Positions 2,409 to 55,189 of a stretch of DNA of 64,000 bases are shown piece by piece. The position numbers and the translations under genes were made by a program. Where the stretch lies: contig JAJFKB010000011.1 of assembly GCA_021773395.1 (NCBI GenBank), forward strand, positions 124,001 to 188,000. The letters are read 5' to 3'. Numbering within the stretch: position 1 is the first letter of the stretch; each line of letters starts with the position of its first letter. The notes beneath the pieces were generated by a model. That model made no database searches. It was not told the DNA's origin and was given only the letters and a program-made list of their open reading frames with translations. The DNA comes from Gammaproteobacteria bacterium (lineage in GTDB: Bacteria > Pseudomonadota > Gammaproteobacteria > Pseudomonadales > IMCC2047).

Positions 2409-3470
2409 CTATCCTACTCTCCGCAAAAGCACTACTGCTAACAGAAAAAAAACGACGATTGGGATCAGGCTGGCATACAAAGGCTCAAAACCAAATACAA
2501 TGCTCGCAGGCCCGAGAAAATCTTCCGAGTACTTAAATAGCAACCCTAGTATGACGCCAGTAAAAACACGAAACCCCATAGTAACCGAACGTAAGGGTCC
2601 GAAAATACAGGAAAGGGCAACTAGAACCATCACCACGGTTGCGAGAGGTTGAAAAATTTTCTTCCAGTAAGCGAGCAGATATTTTTTTGCATTAAGTCCT
2701 TGAGCCACCAAATAGCGAGTGTAGGTATGCAGCCCCTCAATAGATAGATCTTCCGGCTTAACCACTACGACCTTTAGCACGTCGGGTGTCAACCGGGTAT
2801 CCCAGCGCAAGCTGGCAAACTCCTGTTTTACTGCCCGATCCGGATAAAGCCGCGTCACCTCGACCTCCTGCAAAATCCAATGATCCCCCTGATAAATCGC
2901 CTTGCGCGAAAATCGGGACTCAGTCAGTTTCCTTTGATTATCAAATTGGTACTGGGTTATCCCATAAAGTACACCGCCAGGCAGGACCGCGTTAAAGTGC
3001 ATATAGTCATCGCCTTCCCGGTGCCAATACCCGTGCCGTGACTTAAGGGCCTCGTTGCCACTTTGTGCCAATGCCCTCTGACTCTGCGCATAAGTTTCAG
3101 TATAAGGAACGACAAACTCTCCCATCAATAAACCGATGATAACGAAGAAGAAAGCAGGCTTAATGACTGCATAGGAAATCCGCGCGATTGACATGCCGGT
3201 CGCACGCATCACGGTTAATTCACTATGGTTCGCCAATACTCCCAGCCCTATCAGGCATCCGATCAGCACCGATAAAGAGATAAATTCATAGATTCGTTTC
3301 GGGATAGTCATTGCAAGATACTGAAAGGCCTCTGCCCGTTGATAACCTCCCTCCAGATCCTGCATTTCATCGATCAATGCAAAAATCAGGTCGAGTCCTA
3401 TCACCACGCTTAACACCAGGAAAATCGAGGCTATCACCAACTTTCCAATATATCTGTCGAGACGCCGCAC
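2409..3470 (-). CDS. lptG: LPS export ABC transporter permease LptG
   Basis: A 353-residue inner-membrane permease. With LptF and the ATPase LptB (here at 26120-26845) it forms the LptB2FG complex that extracts LPS from the inner membrane and passes it to LptC. Six membrane segments are visible: three in the first 125 residues and three in the last 90. They flank a large periplasmic beta domain (about residues 130-270). The N-terminus MRRLDRYIGKLV is typical of the family. The gene lies just downstream of lptF with a 19-bp gap, so the two are almost certainly co-transcribed. Length is normal. Confidence 0.95.
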   Translation of the reverse strand: MRRLDRYIGKLVIASIFLVLSVVIGLDLIFALIDEMQDLEGGYQRAEAFQYLAMTIPKRIYEFISLSVLIGCLIGLGVLANHSELTVMRATGMSIARISYAVIKPAFFFVIIGLLMGEFVVPYTETYAQSQRALAQSGNEALKSRHGYWHREGDDYMHFNAVLPGGVLYGITQYQFDNQRKLTESRFSRKAIYQGDHWILQEVEVTRLYPDRAVKQEFASLRWDTRLTPDVLKVVVVKPEDLSIEGLHTYTRYLVAQGLNAKKYLLAYWKKIFQPLATVVMVLVALSCIFGPLRSVTMGFRVFTGVILGLLFKYSEDFLGPASIVFGFEPLYASLIPIVVFFLLAVVLLRRVG

Positions 3471-3489
3471 CCGCTAGTTACTCACTCTA

Positions 3490-4584
3490 TTATTTCCGAA
3501 ACCAAAACAGTTTATGATGGAGATTGCCAATGAGCGCCAATCCAATACCAAGAAACAGCAAATGCACCGACAACATTCCGGGTAAAGGATCAAGTTTACC
3601 ATCCTCAATCCCGGTACGTGTTGTGGACAACAATATCAGATAACCCATATAAAGGAAGATAGCGGGCAGCAGTCGCAGATAACGCCCCTGCCGAGGGTTC
3701 ACCCTGCTTAATGGAATGGCTAAAAGAGTGATCACAGGTACCAAAAGTGGCAAAGAGATACGCCATTGCAGCTGCGCCATATCCTCCGGATCATCAGACC
3801 CCAGCAAATCCTGAGTTGGCTTCAATTCTGCCTTCACTCTGACCTGACGTTTTGTGGGCTTGGGAATTTTAACACCATATTTTTCATACTGGGTAACGCG
3901 ATACTCCGGGTCACCAGGATTGCCATCGTAACGATAACCATTTTCCAGAAGCAGAAAGTGACTTCCGGTATCCGCGTCAATGTACTGTGATCCTGATTCT
4001 GCAACCAACAGTATCAACTCAGGCTTATCGCCACCCTTTTTTTCCAACCGTTGAGAAATAAAGACATTCTCCATGCGCGTTCGCTTATCCATTAGCTTTT
4101 CGGTATAAGTCACACGCCCGCCACTTCCCAACTGCTGAAAACGCCCGGGAATGAGCGTATCAAATTCGGTACGTTCATCCTGTGCATTAAAGATATCCTC
4201 GACCTTCGCAGCACCCCAGGGGCTAACCTTTATGCTCAACACCGCCACCACTAGCGTGACCAGCAAAGCAGGCACCATGGTATAAAATACCAATTTTTTA
4301 TTACTCATACCACAGGCTGAAAGCACGGTCATTTCACTGTCCAGATAAAGCCTGCCGTATGACATTAGAATGGCTAAAAACAGACCCAGCGGTAGTATAA
4401 GCTCCAGGAATCCCGGCAACCGGTACCCCATAACACTAAACAATACATCAGCCGCTAATTCGCCCGTTGCGGCTTCGGCGAGATACTTGATGAACCGCCC
4501 ACTCATCACGATAAGTAGCAATATAGCGGTAACCGCTATTAGAGCAACCAGTATATTTTTTGCAAGATAGCGGAATATTATCAA
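3490..4584 (-). CDS. lptF: LPS export ABC transporter permease LptF
   Basis: A 364-residue permease partner of LptG, with N-terminal membrane helices, a periplasmic beta-jellyroll (about residues 120-255) and three C-terminal helices. The frame is open to an ATG at 4647, but I start at the TTG at 4584. That start gives (M)IIFRYLAKNILVAL, which aligns with the conserved MIxxRYL N-terminus of LptF; the extra 21 residues upstream are polar and unlike the family. No clear Shine-Dalgarno supports either start. The gene is divergent from pepA, as in E. coli and Pseudomonas. Confidence 0.92.
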   Translation of the reverse strand: MIIFRYLAKNILVALIAVTAILLLIVMSGRFIKYLAEAATGELAADVLFSVMGYRLPGFLELILPLGLFLAILMSYGRLYLDSEMTVLSACGMSNKKLVFYTMVPALLVTLVVAVLSIKVSPWGAAKVEDIFNAQDERTEFDTLIPGRFQQLGSGGRVTYTEKLMDKRTRMENVFISQRLEKKGGDKPELILLVAESGSQYIDADTGSHFLLLENGYRYDGNPGDPEYRVTQYEKYGVKIPKPTKRQVRVKAELKPTQDLLGSDDPEDMAQLQWRISLPLLVPVITLLAIPLSRVNPRQGRYLRLLPAIFLYMGYLILLSTTRTGIEDGKLDPLPGMLSVHLLFLGIGLALIGNLHHKLFWFRK

Positions 4585-20842: not shown

Positions 20843-20895
20843 CATTTTCCTACATGGCCGCGACTATACCATCTGAACCAGATGCTGTTAACTAG

Positions 20896-21090
20896 GGAGC
20901 CTCTGAATAATTCCTTAATCTTTCATTAAACATTAAAACAACTGGGCGCAAGATAGTAATTACTACTTGGTAGTTGATCTCTTGGTATTAGTACTTGATC
21001 TCCTGGCACAGCGCCTAAATCCGCAACCGAAATTTTAATGGGTCTCCCTGCGCACTTTGCCAAACATTAAGGCGTTATTCAGAGGCTCCT
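20896..21090. mobile_element. Family-A MITE, 195 bp, flanked by TA
   Basis: Terminal inverted repeats are GGGAGCCTCTGAATAATTCC on the left and AGGAGCCTCTGAATAACGCC on the right (reverse complement). The dinucleotide TA directly flanks both ends, at 20894-20895 and 21091-21092. There is no coding capacity. Inside are two imperfect direct repeats of TTGATCTCYTGG. The TA duplication is the hallmark of IS630/Tc1-mariner-type transposition, so a transposase of that kind elsewhere in the genome may move it. Confidence 0.8.
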
Positions 21091-21118
21091 TAATCAATCC
21101 ACATGACAGCGATTCCAG

Positions 21119-47472: not shown

Positions 47473-48296
47473 ATGTTCGGCCGCAAAAGGATTTTCAAAA
47501 CCCGCACAGGTTCATCACCACCCTTTTGCATCGGCGTCGGTGTTTTTATCGCGGTACTTTTTTCGCTGACATTAACACCTATGTTTATCAGCGCGGCTGG
47601 CATCACCCAGGGAGCCGAATCGCTCTACATCCTGTCATTTCTGGGATTAACCGGTATGGGTTATCTGATCACTCGCTATTATTACGGTGTTCGTACATGG
47701 ATTATCGAACCGGATGGCAACCCCGAGAACCGCGAACTTTGGCTTCGCAGTGTCACTTATGACGCCAGCACAGTAATACTCTGTCGCACTATTACGCGGG
47801 TTGAACCATGCAATTACGACCGATCCTTTTTAGGTTCACTAGGGAACCTCTGAATAACTCCTTGATCCCTCTGGCGTACAGAGCGTTTGTAGATCAAGAC
47901 GGCTTTGTGCAGTGATGTCCAGACCTTGCAAACAAAGCCAACGCAGAACTACGAATGCCCTGTAAGCCCCGTAGGGCGAGGCCTGAAAGCTTCATCTGCG
48001 GCGTTAGAAACTTTGCTAAGGCAATAAGCATTAGCGGCAGTTCCTGCCTTGCAGCTAAAACTTTCAGGTCTCGCAGAGGCATTAAGGAGTTATTCAGAGA
48101 TTCCCTGGTACAGGGTGGATCGACCAGCGAAGATCACTGTTATAATTACAGGCAGGCGGGCTATCGCGGCCCAGGCCTTCGTATCAGTTACTTACTACCA
48201 GCCCAATACAAACAGGAGCCCATTGAAAAAACCTTTCAATTTCCCGTGAATCATGCAGAAAGGGTAGCTGAATTGATCGGAGAAAACGTCAGATAA
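47473..48296 (+). pseudogene. Membrane protein of unknown function, split by a MITE
   Basis: The first fragment, 47473-47853, encodes two hydrophobic spans (about residues 18-40 and 48-66). A hydrophilic beta-rich part follows (YYYGVRTWIIEPDGNPENREL, with CRTITRVEPCNYD further on). It ends in the left repeat of the MITE, which supplies the residues LGNL and a TGA. Past the MITE the frame resumes as VQGGSTSEDHCYNYRQAGYR to IGENVR and stops at 48296. Removing 47842-48107 (264-bp element plus one 2-bp target copy) joins the two parts in frame as ...FLGSLVQGGSTSED. The original would have been about 185 residues. The family is not recognised; the C-terminal part resembles a PH-like YdbT/bPH fold only loosely. 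Confidence 0.8.
47842..48105. mobile_element. Family-A MITE, 264 bp, inserted in a gene
   Basis: Terminal repeats are GGGAACCTCTGAATAACTCC on the left and GGGAATCTCTGAATAACTCC on the right (reverse complement). The flanks are TA at 47840-47841 and TG at 48106-48107, a TA duplication with one change. It has no complete coding sequence. The insertion length restores the host frame exactly when removed with one target copy. Confidence 0.85.
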
Positions 48297-48672: not shown

Positions 48673-49074
48673 ATGCAATTTTTGCTGACATTCGCCCTCA
48701 CGATGGTGTCGTGGTTAACTCTTGCGGCTGATCTCAAGCCCTTTGCCAGTGATGGCTGCAGTGCATTTCCTGATGGCACTCTCGAGCAGAATGAGCTGTG
48801 GCTTAAATGCTGTACCGCTCATGATTATCAGTACTGGAAAGGGGGCACCTACAAACAAAGATTAGCCGCGGACAAAGCACTTAAACACTGTGTAGAGCAA
48901 GTCGGCCAACCCGAAATTGCCTTGCTGATGCTGGCGGGCGTCAGGGTTGGAGGCACGCCATATCTACCCACAACCTTTCGCTGGGGATACGGTTGGTTCT
49001 ACCCCAGATTCTACGGTGCATTAACGAGAGAGGAGCTATTACAGGTCAACCAAACCAGCCCACCCATTGAATAG
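48673..49074 (+). CDS. Secreted phospholipase-A2-like protein
   Basis: A 133-residue protein with a signal peptide (residues 1-18, ending WLTLAA). A cysteine-containing core follows: DGCSAFPDG (about 27-35), then LKCCTAHDYQYWKGGTYKQRLAADKALKHCV. The CCxxHDxxYW arrangement with a downstream D..L..C resembles the catalytic His-Asp motif of phospholipase A2. Two tryptophan/tyrosine-rich segments close the protein. If catalytic, it would act in the periplasm or outside the cell. The family is widespread but I know no experimental proof of activity, so the call is by motif only. GGGGAAGG precedes the start by 10 bases. Confidence 0.62.
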   Translation: MQFLLTFALTMVSWLTLAADLKPFASDGCSAFPDGTLEQNELWLKCCTAHDYQYWKGGTYKQRLAADKALKHCVEQVGQPEIALLMLAGVRVGGTPYLPTTFRWGYGWFYPRFYGALTREELLQVNQTSPPIE

Positions 49075-49146
49075 CCCCTTTTTGAAGATCCCTGAGTACT
49101 AAGGAGCCTCTGAATAACTCGACCACTTGCCCCAGTCTAAAAAATA

Positions 49147-49169
49147 ATTTGCCCCGGAATGGGGCAAAT
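49147..49169. repeat. Perfect 9-bp hairpin upstream of the dual-VWA gene
   Basis: ATTTGCCCC (49147-49155) and GGGGCAAAT (49161-49169) surround GGAAT. It lies 27 bp inside the left end of the putative cassette and 143 bp before the GTG start. There is no T-run, so an operator or an element-end structure is more likely than a terminator. Confidence 0.55.
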
Positions 49170-49311
49170 ACCCAGTCCCATCCTATACTGAATAAAACTC
49201 TCATTGCCTTTGATCTGAAAGAAGTCTTCGTAGAATCCAGGGGATCAGCATCAACCCCTGCGTAAGGCTCGCGCCAGACAGAGTCCCCATAACATAAGGA
49301 GAATATTTGCG

Positions 49312-51564
49312 GTGAGTTTGAATTTCTTCAAACCAAAAGCACTTAGTTTCTGTCTGGCATTTTCTGCTCTTTACAGCCTGACTGTACAAGCTGTTGAGAA
49401 GGACTCGACACCGACCGTCATACTGCTAGACCGTTCATTCAGTATGACTGACCACCTAAATGGCCAACCTAAATTTGAGATCGCCAAAGCGGCCTTTCGC
49501 GATTTGGCACACCGTTTTGAAGGGCAGTCGATCATCTCTGTTCGCTTCTTTGCTGGAGGTCGAGACAAACAGGATGACCAGGTTAATTGCAAAGCGAATG
49601 AACTCTCTCTGCCGATGGGTACACCTATCGAACCTGCGGCTATGGATAAGCTTATCTCCGGTATTCGACCGCTCGGACGCAAAACCAACATCAGCTTTGC
49701 CATTGAACAGGCGACACAGGATCTTGCCCCCTTTGATCGGGGTAAAATCATTCTCATTTCCGATGGAGAAGAGAACTGCGAACTGGATCCAATTGATCTT
49801 GCCCAGGCTCTAAACGCGAAAAACATCAATATCGATACCATCGGTATTGGGCAACCTGGCCAGTTCTCACAACTGGGTCGTATCGCTTTAGCCGGTGCAG
49901 GAGAATTCCAACTGGCAGACTCCGCCGAGCAGCTGGCCAACGCCATTGGTGCAGGCCTACCCCAGGCTCTTTCTCTACCCTCAACCAATCCTGCGCCCCT
50001 CCCGGCGGCAATGCCAGGTTCCATATCTTTGGCGGCGAGTCCGGCAGCTGAAGCTCCTCCAGCAGGCAAATTAGCTCCCGCTGCGGCGGCCCCAGCACCC
50101 AATATTGCGCCCATGACACTGGAAGTGGAGGTGGTCAATGAGAAACCCCAAGAGCCAGTGGCAATTGAGGTTATTCTGGATGTCAGCGGTTCCATGGCAG
50201 CCAGAATTCAGGGAAAACAAAAAATGGCACTGGCGCGTACAGCACTTCATGAAGCCATTCAAGGGTTGGATTCGGCAGCTTTTCTGGTCGGTTTCAGGGC
50301 TTATGGTTTCGATAACAGCGTACCGAAAACACCGGAAGCATCCTGCCCGAATACAGAATTGCTGGCTGATATCGCCGCCAATCAGATTTCGAGTATTCGC
50401 CAGCAGGTCGATCAGTTACAACCCTTCGGTTACACCCCTATTGCCAAAAGTCTGGAGCTGGCTGGACAGGATCTAAATAACACAGCATCCAGCAAACAGA
50501 TGATAATTCTGATTTCCGACGGCGAGGAAACATGCGGTGGTGACCCGATTGAAGTCGCAGCACAATTGCGCGCCATGGGTATTGATATTGAAACCCACGT
50601 TATTGGTTTCGACCTGGATAACGAACAGGCAAAACAGATGCACGCCATTGCCAATGCTGGCGGCGGCAGTTTTTATGATGCCAAGGATGCCACGGAGTTA
50701 AGAAGTGCTTTAGTGAGTGTCGTCGAGGTCGCCCAGGAAAAAATTGATCCTACCTGGCTGCGCACTATTCACCCCATCACCGGAGGAACCACTCCGGAAA
50801 AAGCGGTAAATCTGCTGCCAGGCACATACACTTTGTCGGACTTCCTGGAGAAGGGCGAACAGGCCTATTTTCGCGTCAACACTAAAAAAGGACAATACGG
50901 GATCGTGCGCGGCCTGATTCAGTCTAGGCGCTTGATCCGTGAGGGGGAGAAAATGGTCGAATCTTCCACCGGCTACGCGCAATATCGAATTTCGCTTTAC
51001 GAAATGCGCAACGGCAAAAACCGCGGGCGCTTTGTAAGATTGAGTGGTGAACCGGGAGATTTCGGGCATGTCGGTTTTAGCGACACTGCTGGAGAGGGAT
51101 TTGTTTTTACCATTAGCAGCAATTATGACCGGGTACACAGGGACGCGCTATTTAATATCGATGTGATCGAAGCAGGAGACCGACTTCAAGGTGAGGAGGC
51201 TCCGGATACAGCAGAGAGTGAGCCGATAGCACTAGCTGTCGATGAAACCATCACAGGACATCTGGGCGATGGGGATATGGCGGATATCTATCGTGTTTCA
51301 CTCGCCGATTCCGGCGCTGCTGCGCTGACACTGCACTTTGCAACCAAAGATGATCAGTTCAGATCGCGCATTATCATTAAAAGCGCGAATGGGAACCGTA
51401 TTATGACTACCACATCCAAAGGTGATCCGTTGAAACGCGCGTTTAGCCTCCCTGACAATTCTGGCAATCAGATCTATATCGAGATCAAAAACAGCAATCC
51501 ACAGCTGGCCTCACGTTTCACCTCCTACAGTCTCAGTCTGCAGGCAGCTCACAATGATGAATAG
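49312..51564 (+). CDS. Exported protein with two von Willebrand factor A domains
   Basis: A 750-residue protein with a signal peptide (about residues 1-27, ending VQA). VWA domain 1 (about 32-220) has the MIDAS motif DRSFS at D40 and LISDGEENCELDP. An Ala/Pro-rich linker follows (about 225-275). VWA domain 2 (about 282-470) has DVSGS at D290 and LISDGEETCGGDP. The C-terminal half (about 480-750) has two beta-sandwich segments, the last (about 635-748) like bacterial pre-peptidase/PPC domains. Both metal sites look intact, so protein or matrix binding is likely. The two VWA domains look like an internal duplication. GTG is the start, with AGGAG 11 bases ahead. The next gene overlaps its end by 11 bp. 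Confidence 0.85.
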   Translation: MSLNFFKPKALSFCLAFSALYSLTVQAVEKDSTPTVILLDRSFSMTDHLNGQPKFEIAKAAFRDLAHRFEGQSIISVRFFAGGRDKQDDQVNCKANELSLPMGTPIEPAAMDKLISGIRPLGRKTNISFAIEQATQDLAPFDRGKIILISDGEENCELDPIDLAQALNAKNINIDTIGIGQPGQFSQLGRIALAGAGEFQLADSAEQLANAIGAGLPQALSLPSTNPAPLPAAMPGSISLAASPAAEAPPAGKLAPAAAAPAPNIAPMTLEVEVVNEKPQEPVAIEVILDVSGSMAARIQGKQKMALARTALHEAIQGLDSAAFLVGFRAYGFDNSVPKTPEASCPNTELLADIAANQISSIRQQVDQLQPFGYTPIAKSLELAGQDLNNTASSKQMIILISDGEETCGGDPIEVAAQLRAMGIDIETHVIGFDLDNEQAKQMHAIANAGGGSFYDAKDATELRSALVSVVEVAQEKIDPTWLRTIHPITGGTTPEKAVNLLPGTYTLSDFLEKGEQAYFRVNTKKGQYGIVRGLIQSRRLIREGEKMVESSTGYAQYRISLYEMRNGKNRGRFVRLSGEPGDFGHVGFSDTAGEGFVFTISSNYDRVHRDALFNIDVIEAGDRLQGEEAPDTAESEPIALAVDETITGHLGDGDMADIYRVSLADSGAAALTLHFATKDDQFRSRIIIKSANGNRIMTTTSKGDPLKRAFSLPDNSGNQIYIEIKNSNPQLASRFTSYSLSLQAAHNDE

Positions 51565-52771
51565 AACACAATCTTGCTACTACCTGCTGTGGATACTGCT
51601 GGCCACAAAACCGGTATTTGCGACGACATCGGTGGACGCAAAGGAGATGCTTAACCGCTATTTTAATCACTTGCAAACCCGATTCATCCTGTTAGAGGAC
51701 GAAAATATTCCCCCTGCTGAACGCCTGGGAATTCGTACCGACCTGGTTAATGGCAAACAGTTCTGGTTACCTGTGAAAGGTAAGCCCGGTCGGGCCTTTA
51801 ATCTGATCAGTTTTTTTCAGCGCACCCCCCCCTCCTCTTGGGAGATCCGTCAGCTTACTGCTGAACCGGATCAGACCAGCATGGCAGTCGATTTCAGCGT
51901 TGACAGCTTCCCGGGGCATCCCTGGCGGACCCGCTTTGAGCTACTTAAACAGAATGGCCGCTGGTTAATTCTTTCTTTTAATGATCTGACCAAACGTCCC
52001 ATCCCGCCCGGTGCCGATATACAAAGTGTGCTTGAGCACTATCTGATTGCGGTGCAAAATGCCACCGCTCGTATCTATTCGGGAGAGCTCAGCCGGGAAG
52101 AGAAACAAAAACTGACCATGAAGTACGGCTTTGGAGCCGGGTATTGGGTGGGTCAGTCCTCGAGAAAAGATCTGCCTGCAGGCACCCTGTTCAGCTACCT
52201 GCTCTCGCGAAGGACTTTTAGCTGGGAGATCGAACCGGAAAAAATCGCTGGGGATTACGCAGAAGCGGTGGTACATATCCACTCAAAACCCAAATTTGCA
52301 GCGCCCATTAAGAAGACCTACACCATTGAACTTTCCCGACTGGATAAAGAGTGGTTTCTCGCCAATCACCGTAGCAAAAAACCACCGACCCCAGCGAAAC
52401 CAACGGTTAAAAAAGCCGATCCCAGCGGCCAGTCGCCAAGCGATATTGTTCATCTGCAATTACAACTGCTTCAGCAAGACAAAGCCCGGCTGACCGATCT
52501 GGCGGATGCATCCAAACCACTCTGGATTAAGACACGACAGGCACGCCAGGGAATGGGGCGCCTGTTCGGTATGGCTATGGGATCAAACGGAGGCAAGCTG
52601 CCGGAATGGGAAGTTATCAGCACCGAAGATCATGGCGACAAGCAACTTATTATGGTCAAGGCAATCTGGTCCGATCAGCAGACAATCAGACTGTTCCATC
52701 GGATTCAGTTTTCCCTGACAAAAACGGACAATGGCTGGCGATTATCAGATGCACAGCTATTACGAAATTAG
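51554..52771 (+). CDS. Exported protein of unknown function, two-repeat beta/alpha type
   Basis: A 405-residue protein with a signal peptide (about residues 1-23, ending VFA). Its body looks like three similar modules, each with a helix and a curved sheet. Motifs such as FELLKQNGRWLILSFNDL, YTIELSRLDKEWFLANHRS and FSLTKTDNGWRLSDAQLL all end with Trp-x-(I/L/F) after a basic turn, in the manner of DUF4878/NTF2-like lumazine-type folds. A Lys/Pro-rich linker lies near residues 270-295. I do not recognise the family. It overlaps the dual-VWA gene as ATGATGAATAG, so the two are translationally coupled and probably act together in the periplasm. Confidence 0.7.
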   Translation: MMNRTQSCYYLLWILLATKPVFATTSVDAKEMLNRYFNHLQTRFILLEDENIPPAERLGIRTDLVNGKQFWLPVKGKPGRAFNLISFFQRTPPSSWEIRQLTAEPDQTSMAVDFSVDSFPGHPWRTRFELLKQNGRWLILSFNDLTKRPIPPGADIQSVLEHYLIAVQNATARIYSGELSREEKQKLTMKYGFGAGYWVGQSSRKDLPAGTLFSYLLSRRTFSWEIEPEKIAGDYAEAVVHIHSKPKFAAPIKKTYTIELSRLDKEWFLANHRSKKPPTPAKPTVKKADPSGQSPSDIVHLQLQLLQQDKARLTDLADASKPLWIKTRQARQGMGRLFGMAMGSNGGKLPEWEVISTEDHGDKQLIMVKAIWSDQQTIRLFHRIQFSLTKTDNGWRLSDAQLLRN

Positions 52772-52796
52772 TGTATGCAACAAAAGGACAAAGAGT

Positions 52797-53363
52797 ATGA
52801 CTAAAATCGCTTTATGGGTATGGCTCTGCACGATGCCATGCCTGGTGGTGGCAGGTACTAAAAACATCTATCGTGATTTAGACCAGGATGTCACCGCGAA
52901 CGAAAAACAGGCGTTTCGACTAAAACTTAAAAAACAGCTAGGCGTCAAAATGGGCCGCATGGCAGGGGTCTGGGGTCTGGTCGGTGCAAGCGATAATGGA
53001 GACGCTTTCTTTCTGGGCAAAACACCAGACCGTGCACGATTACAATTTACCCTTTCTTCGCCGCAAGATCATGCGCCTGTCACGATGGTTATTACCGCCA
53101 AAGATGGCCAAAAGATCGACACCCATGAATTGCGCGTTCAACCAGGAGAAACCCGGGAACAATGGTTTGCACTGACCGGCAAGGTCACAGTATTAATCCG
53201 TTCAGCCAACAGCCAAGAGACGCCCTACGCCGCCTATTTCTGGTATCCGGGGGAGCGCCTCGATGGCCTGGAGAGTGATAAATTTCACAGACTAAAATCA
53301 GGCGATGCCGGGAAGGTGTCGTCGTTCGCTCGCCGCAAACAGGGAGACAGCAGCCATGACTAA
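52797..53363 (+). CDS. Exported protein of unknown function (beta-sandwich type)
   Basis: A 188-residue protein with a signal peptide (about residues 1-19, ending LVVA). A mainly beta region follows (about 60-150: ARLQFTLSSPQDHAPVTMVI, HELRVQPGETREQWFALTG) and then a basic, probably disordered tail. The segment GETREQWFALTGKVTVLIRS resembles PPC/CARDB-like modules that bind carbohydrate or peptidase partners, which is weak evidence. The frame opens at 52731 but overlaps the previous gene; AAAGGA before the ATG at 52797 fixes the start. Its stop overlaps the next start by 8 bp. Confidence 0.68.
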   Translation: MTKIALWVWLCTMPCLVVAGTKNIYRDLDQDVTANEKQAFRLKLKKQLGVKMGRMAGVWGLVGASDNGDAFFLGKTPDRARLQFTLSSPQDHAPVTMVITAKDGQKIDTHELRVQPGETREQWFALTGKVTVLIRSANSQETPYAAYFWYPGERLDGLESDKFHRLKSGDAGKVSSFARRKQGDSSHD

Positions 53364-53991
53364 TCGCAGCATTAAACCCCTTCTATTTATCCTGATTGGC
53401 TTGCATTTCAGCAACGTTTCGGCTGGAGATTACGACTGGGCCACCGATGGTTTCTTTAATCCAGGGTTTTCCAATATGGTCAACGGCGCAGCGCAGTTTG
53501 CCCAAGCCTATGCAGACTATTCCGCGGCAGAAACCTGTTGGGCTGACCCCCAGTGCGGCATGCCGGACGATCCCAACTCTGGCTTTGATCTGCCTGCCGG
53601 AGACTGCTGTGAAGGCAATAGCAGCTGCGTCGCAGAATTTGACAATCAGGTCTCAAAAATCGATAGCGCGCTTTACACCCTGTACAAAAACGAGAGAACT
53701 TACGAAATCATTATGCAGGTGCAAAAAGCAAGAATGACCGCGATGAAAGGCGCCGGTTCGATGAGCGCACCAGGAGGTGCAGTGGTGGCTCGCATGGAGG
53801 TCGATATTGCCAAAGCACAAAAAGGGTTTATTGATAAGTTCAACACCAAAACCCAGAGCAACATCAATCGCCTGAATGATTTCTTACTGGCTTTGGGTGG
53901 GGTGATCGATCAGCATTGCGGGGATTCAAACTGGTATCAGCGTAATGGATTACCGCTTTATCTGCATGCAAAGACCAAGTTTCCCAAATAA
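53356..53991 (+). CDS. Exported Cys-containing protein of unknown function
   Basis: A 211-residue protein with a signal peptide (about residues 1-23, ending NVSA). Six cysteines cluster in the first 90 residues (TCWADPQCGMPDD, GDCCEGNSSC), plus one near the C-terminus (DQHCGDSNW), so disulfides are likely outside the cytoplasm. The middle (about 95-180) is helical and coiled-coil-like. AGGGAG precedes the ATG at 53356. It is the last gene of the four and ends 55 bp before the right end of the cassette. No family is recognised. Confidence 0.68.
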   Translation: MTNRSIKPLLFILIGLHFSNVSAGDYDWATDGFFNPGFSNMVNGAAQFAQAYADYSAAETCWADPQCGMPDDPNSGFDLPAGDCCEGNSSCVAEFDNQVSKIDSALYTLYKNERTYEIIMQVQKARMTAMKGAGSMSAPGGAVVARMEVDIAKAQKGFIDKFNTKTQSNINRLNDFLLALGGVIDQHCGDSNWYQRNGLPLYLHAKTKFPK

Positions 53992-54034
53992 ACGGTCTGC
54001 GTTACGATCCATTAGTGGAAATCTAAGGAGTTAT

Positions 54035-55189
54035 TCAGCGGTTCCCTAACCTTTGGCCCAGCCTGATCAGTCGCATGACTCGCTCTGCCGCATCACTTAG
54101 ATTGGCCTCGGCATATTGGAGTTGCTGCTCCTCTGTGGTTATTTCAGTCACGCTGGCTTCCAATCCTGAGAAGCCCTGCTGAAACAGCTGCCGATTTTCA
54201 CGCGTCAGACTCCCACCAATGGCAACAACAGGCACCTTATGTCTTTGTGCGATTTCAGCAATTCCAATGGGGGCTTTTCCAAATGCGGTCTGTCCATCAA
54301 TTGTCCCCTCACCGGTAATCACCAGATCTGACTGCGCCATCTTCTTCTCCAGACCTGTCATCTCCGCGATCAAAGTGAATCCGGACCTCAGCTCGGCGCC
54401 GGCAAACTGGGCCAGCGCAAAGCCCAGACCACCCGCGGCGCCCGCTCCATTCATCTCCTTTGCACTTGCGTTCCGGCTCTGCTCGACAATTTGGCAAAAC
54501 TGGCCTAAACCGTGCTCCAGCTTCCGACACATCACTTCCGTCGCCCCTTTTTGCGGGCCATATACAGGTACTGCCCCCTGTTCACCCATTACCGGATTGC
54601 GTACATCGCAGGCGGCAATAAAAGAGCTTTCCATAACCCTGTGACTAACCGCAGTCACGTCGATTGCATGGACCTGATCCAGCAAGTCGCCACGACCTGG
54701 GGAGGATATTTCATTACCCTGAACATCCAGAAACCTATACCCCAAAGCCTGTGCCATACCCATCCCACCATCGATGGTCGCCGAACCTCCCAGCCCACAG
54801 ATAATATTTTTCGCGCCACTAGCAAGCGCTGCCATGATCAACTCCCCAAAACCAAAGCTGGTTGCCTGCATGGGATTCCTCCGCTCGCTGCTCACCAGGG
54901 TCAATCCGGACGAAGCCGCCACCTCCACAACAGCTGTTTCACCATCGCTCAACATGGCGTAGGAAGCGTTCACCCGTTCCCCCATCGGCCCGATCACGGT
55001 GCGGCAGCGACACTCACCACCCAGAACACTCATTAACGCATCAACCGTCCCTTCACCGCCATCAGCCACCGCAATCTTGCCACAGCTAATAGCACCATTA
55101 ACACGCCCTAAACCCCGCTCAATCGCCTCTGCTGCCTGCATTGAAGTGAGACTCCCTTTAAATGAATCTGTGGCGATTAGAATGTTCAT
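54035..55189 (-). CDS. Glycerate kinase (GarK/GlxK family)
   Basis: A 384-residue kinase of the bacterial glycerate kinase family, which phosphorylates D-glycerate to 2- or 3-phosphoglycerate. Motifs are the start MNILIATDSFKGSLTSMQAAEAI, the CGKIAVADGGEGTVDAL segment, ICGLGGSATIDGGMGMAQALG and VITGEGTIDGQTAFGKAP. The last four residues, LGNR, and the TGA stop come from the right terminal repeat of the neighbouring cassette, so the original 3' end was replaced. It is convergent with the cassette genes. Confidence 0.93.
   Translation of the reverse strand: MNILIATDSFKGSLTSMQAAEAIERGLGRVNGAISCGKIAVADGGEGTVDALMSVLGGECRCRTVIGPMGERVNASYAMLSDGETAVVEVAASSGLTLVSSERRNPMQATSFGFGELIMAALASGAKNIICGLGGSATIDGGMGMAQALGYRFLDVQGNEISSPGRGDLLDQVHAIDVTAVSHRVMESSFIAACDVRNPVMGEQGAVPVYGPQKGATEVMCRKLEHGLGQFCQIVEQSRNASAKEMNGAGAAGGLGFALAQFAGAELRSGFTLIAEMTGLEKKMAQSDLVITGEGTIDGQTAFGKAPIGIAEIAQRHKVPVVAIGGSLTRENRQLFQQGFSGLEASVTEITTEEQQLQYAEANLSDAAERVMRLIRLGQRLGNR

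Follow-up and report, generated by a model that had tools for sequence, protein, structure and literature searches.

Gene content and layout of the block

Within the 64,000-nucleotide stretch of DNA analysed here (the window), a 4.9-kb block contains four rightward open reading frames enclosed by two inward-facing terminal repeats, each with CTAA on its outer side (Table 1). The genes are tightly packed, ORF1 overlapping ORF2 and ORF3 overlapping ORF4, and they fit closely between the ends: 191 bp separate the left end from ORF1, and 36 bp separate ORF4 from the right end. All four products begin with a hydrophobic, signal-peptide-like stretch. A previous sequence-only reading had described a block free of transposase genes, with four overlapping or tightly packed rightward genes, signal peptides on all the products, matching inverted repeats and TA at both outer flanks. 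All these points agree with our data: the search that located the six ends of the window and the ORF list gave the same arrangement, neither the ORF list nor the Pfam scans of the four ORFs contained a transposase, and by the four-base rule of the repeat family (see below) the flank on each side reads CTAA.

Table 1 Features of the 4.9-kb block, of related elements in the window and of the related insertion sequence (IS) in another genome.
Feature	Position	Strand	Evidence
Short element, same ends, different body	20894..21091	.	ends 20894-20913/21072-21091
MITE of the same end family, neighbour outside the block	47841..48106	.	ends 47841-47860/48087-48106
Left flanking CTAA, candidate target-site duplication	49099..49102	.	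sequence; overlaps the 20-base match 49101-49120 by its last two bases
Left terminal repeat	49101..49120	+	2 mismatches to the 20-base search pattern
ORF1, predicted exported protein, two VWA domains	49312..51564	+	Pfam VWA 6.8e-21, 2 stretches; 750 aa
ORF2, predicted exported protein, three likely NTF2-like repeats	51554..52771	+	hhalign, AlphaFold2, Foldseek; 405 aa
ORF3, predicted exported protein	52797..53363	+	28% homolog adjoining the ORF4 homolog in L126
ORF4, predicted exported protein, cysteine-containing, no known family	53356..53991	+	49% homolog in L126
Right terminal repeat, contains the glycerate kinase stop codon	54028..54047	-	pattern search, ORF list
Glycerate kinase gene	54035-55189	-	stop codon inside the right terminal repeat
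Right flanking CTAA, candidate target-site duplication	54046..54049	.	sequence; first two bases within the 20-base match
IS5-type IS, same end consensus	L118 (genome G558) 3001-4149, 1149 bp		CTAG on each side

The window holds six ends of this family at up to 3 mismatches, compared to a mean of 0.09 in shuffled sequence. Two short elements had been described as MITEs (miniature inverted-repeat elements) bounded by the same repeats. The ends are indeed present at both, but the element at 20894-21091 matched the 47841 MITE query at its end only. The block is present as a single copy in its own genome, and the composition of its four genes is native (GC3 of 0.50-0.55, versus 0.49 with a standard deviation of 0.04 in the 37 other ORFs of the window).

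Several features were observed in and around the left side of the block. A leftward terminator-like hairpin (window 49147-49169; 9 pairs followed by a T-rich stretch) lies just inside the left end, where no leftward gene is evident inside the block; terminator-like sites number 9 overall, versus 6.3 expected. The small product of the left neighbour gene (window 48673-49074), predicted to be exported, contains a CCxxHDxxYW motif and is weakly similar to prokaryotic phospholipase A2 (Pfam E 0.063, below the cut-off). Two ORFs are overlapped by the MITE at 47841-48106, one (47473-47853) at its end, with its stop codon located in the left end of the MITE, and the other (47955-48296) in its start part; a small gene within 47473-48296 may have been split by this MITE.

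Predicted products of the four genes

The sequence-only reading had assigned two VWA metal sites to one of the products, and this holds for ORF1: both of its VWA domains carry the D-x-S-x-S and ISDGEE motifs. Among solved structures, ORF1 matched five VWA-type chains; the remaining matches of this protein were weak, including three in NCBIfam far below the cut-offs (the best at 37.5 versus 380 bits) and two in PHROGs (0.005 and 0.0068). The C-terminal half of ORF1 is strand-rich in a low-confidence AlphaFold2 model (mean pLDDT 66.1, pTM 0.35).

ORF2 is likely a triple NTF2-like protein. It matched no Pfam family and, among solved structures, nothing below E 0.6 in a search separate from the fold comparison given below; three repeats were detected by hhalign (probabilities of 98% for repeat 1 against 2, 90% for 1 against 3 and 52% for 2 against 3), and in the AlphaFold2 model (mean pLDDT 72.9, pTM 0.45) an arrangement of helices and then four strands occurs three times. 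The Foldseek search with this model retrieved many NTF2-like chains: the best E value was 3.1e-5 (3ub1, several domains, with low TM scores of 0.16 and 0.23), and single-domain matches reached a target TM of 0.63 (3gwr, E 0.035).

Neither NCBIfam nor PHROGs gave any match for ORF2, ORF3 or ORF4, and ORF4 was also without match in Pfam and PADLOC. ORF3 and the C-terminal end of ORF1 have a short motif in common, aligned over 47 columns (E 2.8e-4, probability 41%). The ATG of ORF4 is at 53356; some of the searches used ORF4 from 53359, one codon later. A search for defence systems with the four ORFs and the left neighbour gave no PADLOC match at 0.01. The function that we infer from the domains is that of a complex outside the cytoplasm, in which the metal-dependent VWA domains would bind a partner and the NTF2-like protein would be the scaffold or the ligand-binding part.

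Distribution of the genes in other genomes

Judged by sequence comparison, the predicted gene set is a rare exported system made up of a core module (ORF1-ORF2) and a second module (ORF3-ORF4). Among 57 relatives, ORF2 was found in its own genome only; whole ORF1 matched in 9 of the 57, its own included, and beyond its own locus these matches cover only the VWA-domain parts. The short loci around 11 ORF1 matches in the relatives contained none of ORF2 to ORF4. Among 369 genomes of the class, ORF2 was present in two (its own and G281), the C-terminus of ORF1 in three (its own, G281 and, weakly, G372 at 8.5e-4), and ORF3 with ORF4 in four (its own, G281 at 4.6e-50 and, weakly, G089 at 5.5e-4 and G067 at 8.9e-4). 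Among 370 genomes of the order, the search with the ORF1 C-terminus and ORF4 matched two, its own and G605, with the match in G605 limited to the ORF1 part. Across 84,980 species genomes, a pattern-based scan built on a two-sequence C-terminal alignment gave two loci, L068 in OFTM78 and L069, which coincides in position with the G281 locus.

The core pair is thus found in three other genomes, with neighbours different from those of the block. In OFTM78 (L068), ORF1 is 63% and ORF2 49% identical; in G605 (L130), a 42% identical ORF1 is followed by a 297-aa ORF2-like gene; in G281, the ORF1-ORF2 homologs (37% for ORF1) are located on one contig (L062) and the ORF3-ORF4 homologs on another (L126). 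A gene for a large HExxH protein follows the VWA-ORF2 pair in L068 (12047-14311) and L130 (10568-12382), replacing ORF3-ORF4; the two HExxH proteins have no Pfam match and are weakly alike (E 0.004). ORF4 was not found in G605, and neither ORF3 nor ORF4 was found in the OFTM78 genome in a search run without a positive control. Since the neighbours differ between genomes, ORF1-ORF2 can be considered the core, with a variable downstream part.

The sequence-only reading had proposed to look for the same four genes with the same ends elsewhere. Instead, the genes were split into two modules, and the homologs in three genomes lack the ends: none of the module loci (L062, L068, L126, L130) has a family end at up to 5 mismatches. 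As the genes fall into two modules that are found elsewhere, the gene set of the block is not defined by the repeats. The co-occurrence of both modules in one distant genome (G281, a single case) argues for a shared task. As to a plasmid or viral home, ORF2 and the ORF1 C-terminus had no match in 72,556 plasmid records, and viral contigs contained neither an exact 20-base end nor a relative of the ORF1 C-terminus.

The family of terminal repeats

The genome carrying the block (3.8 Mb, 26 contigs) has 66 ends at up to 3 mismatches; the reversed pattern has none. The MITE at 47841-48106 is present in 14 copies, itself included, with at least 246 of the 286 query bases aligned, and in further partial copies. 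The sample taken around the ends consisted of 30 short loci with elements and 10 longer regions. The flanks were compared in the 23 short loci with both ends at up to 4 mismatches (L025, L033, L041-L044 and L046, with one end missing or more diverged, were left out, and the block itself is not one of the 23): on the two sides, the 4-mers are the same in 9 and different in 14 (shuffled mean 3.5, P 0.0014), and all nine agreeing flanks are CTAA, CTAG or TTAG, i.e. YTAR.

Ten ends are solo (L047, L048, L050-L053, L055-L057), with no partner at up to 5 mismatches within about 5 kb inward, a count that leaves out the weak end C7:75196; an eleventh end, in L054, is paired with one about 140 bp from it. 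The inner TCCTTA is kept in 7 of the ten, and CTAA, a common flank, is also found beside several of them. At L051, L052, L102 and L117, the end begins at the last base of an ORF stop codon. Insertion at gene ends would do little harm, because YTAR contains TAA or TAG.

Elements of the IS5 group duplicate a 4-bp YTAR target and encode a DDE_Tnp_1 transposase with DUF772, whereas IS630-type elements show a 2-bp TA duplication and an IS630 transposase. Neither the YTAR flanks of 4 bp nor the IS5-type partner supports the IS630-type origin suggested by the sequence-only reading, and on these two grounds that origin was rejected. The end family is of the IS5 type, because of its YTAR flank duplications and because an IS with the same end consensus (L118; Table 1) encodes a transposase of 318 aa (ORF 3142-4098) matching PF01609 (DDE_Tnp_1, 6.2e-28) and PF05598 (DUF772, 5.3e-20). 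This IS, in which the right end differs from the 19-base pattern by 4 mismatches, is, on sequence grounds, a candidate autonomous partner of the family; it shares the end consensus of the block but carries its own transposase and is located in another genome.

Ends at up to 1 mismatch were present in 24 of 391 genomes and in 13 of the 142 genera of the order, its own included. No cognate transposase was found among the three DDE_Tnp_1 (PF01609) matches of the genome carrying the block. One of them (L058) encodes a DUF772-type transposase that shares 31% identity with the L118 enzyme, but its inverted repeat is different; the other two (L059 and the fragment L060) have no family end at up to 5 mismatches, and one each at 6. 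Among the matches listed for the other 23 genomes that have ends (ten or fewer per genome, each with no more than 1 mismatch), no cassette resembling the block was seen by eye; one pair of ends 3.3 kb apart (G532) corresponds to two separate short elements.

A mobile unit or ends flanking an older operon

The layout fits a mobile insertion cassette, and there is about an even chance that the block moved as one unit, a movement which we infer. The unit, devoid of a transposase, would consist of four passenger genes enclosed by two facing ends that belong to an IS5-type MITE family; a single move would have placed it in the 3' end of the glycerate kinase gene, duplicating CTAA, and the transposase would have come in trans from an element of the IS5 group that was not found in the genome carrying the block. 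The presence of the kinase stop codon in the right end is as expected after insertion there, and the matching CTAA flanks add only modestly, because CTAA is a common flank. Joining the two sides into an empty site gives a kinase of 398 aa, versus 384 aa at present; 398 aa is a little long for the glycerate kinase family. An empty site was searched for in the genus and family relatives G001-G003, where neither flanking gene had a match (the own genome matched; completeness 83% for G001 and 86% for G003). The proposal of a cargo mobilised by MITE ends thus keeps its inverted ends, its CTAA flanks, the stop codon in the right end and the lack of a transposase, but the ten solo ends and the homologous genes without ends elsewhere keep movement as a unit from being taken as proven.

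Almost as likely, the operon is older, was assembled or brought to this place otherwise, and lies by coincidence between two independent solo ends of the MITE family. This genome has ten solo ends, the composition of the block genes is native, and the homologous modules are found elsewhere without ends. Several ends sit right at a gene's stop codon: as YTAR contains TAA/TAG, ends could settle harmlessly at gene ends and would tend toward operon edges. With solo ends distributed randomly over the genome, a pair facing each other within 5 kb arose in 4.3%, 8.6% and 11.9% of the simulations with 12, 17 and 20 solo ends, respectively (the number 17 includes five short loci in which one end is retained), and a pair within 10 kb in 8.4%, 16.3% and 22.3%; clustering of elements on this contig would raise these figures. 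Against such a coincidence, chance pairing combined with a matching flank would come to about 1-2%, as estimated from the simulation, and no other two solo ends were seen by eye to face each other so closely among the 66 ends. Insertion of the four genes into a pre-existing MITE, which would have split it, is very improbable: the ends do belong to a MITE family with many two-ended copies, but no MITE body was found beside either end: the 286-base MITE query gave a single match in the block, 24 bases long, at its right end.

Relation to known systems and significance

As a mobile insertion cassette, the block would be comparable to MIC231 of Bacillus cereus and mic-qnrD of Proteeae, described in PMC3913671: passenger genes lie between two inverted repeats, with no transposase inside. 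In these cassettes, target duplication is usual and movement takes place in trans; the block, whose mobilisation in trans is putative, differs in having IS5-type ends and YTAR flanks rather than IS231 ends, and in its 4.9-kb length with four genes for predicted exported proteins. The Tn3-derived TIME-COMP structures, according to PMC4133298, mobilise the DNA between them, and share with the block the idea of miniature non-autonomous elements making the DNA between two copies mobile; there, in the Tn3 family, both ends are complete miniature copies and movement was shown experimentally, whereas each side of the block has a lone end, about 20 bp long, from an IS5-type family. Putative passenger genes are also mentioned for IS4-family elements in PMC2266710. 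Among the matches listed from the open-licence literature, none dealt with the end family or the operon by title or start of abstract, which is not proof of absence, and a text search for three pieces of the ends gave no paper on transposons, judged in the same way.

The broader reading, in which IS5-type MITE ends, present in 13 of the 142 sampled genera, built and moved a cassette of four genes joining two separately existing modules into a portable operon for exported proteins, is tentative and rather doubtful. The pair formed by the dual-VWA and the likely triple-NTF2 proteins is a rare module with, beyond VWA, no matching family in the libraries searched. A joint function of the two modules is testable, because the ORF3-ORF4 pair occurs in the same distant genome as the core pair, at another locus. 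Movement of the block as a unit, if it took place, would mean that an exported system of several genes can be transported whole by the ends of a common miniature transposon.
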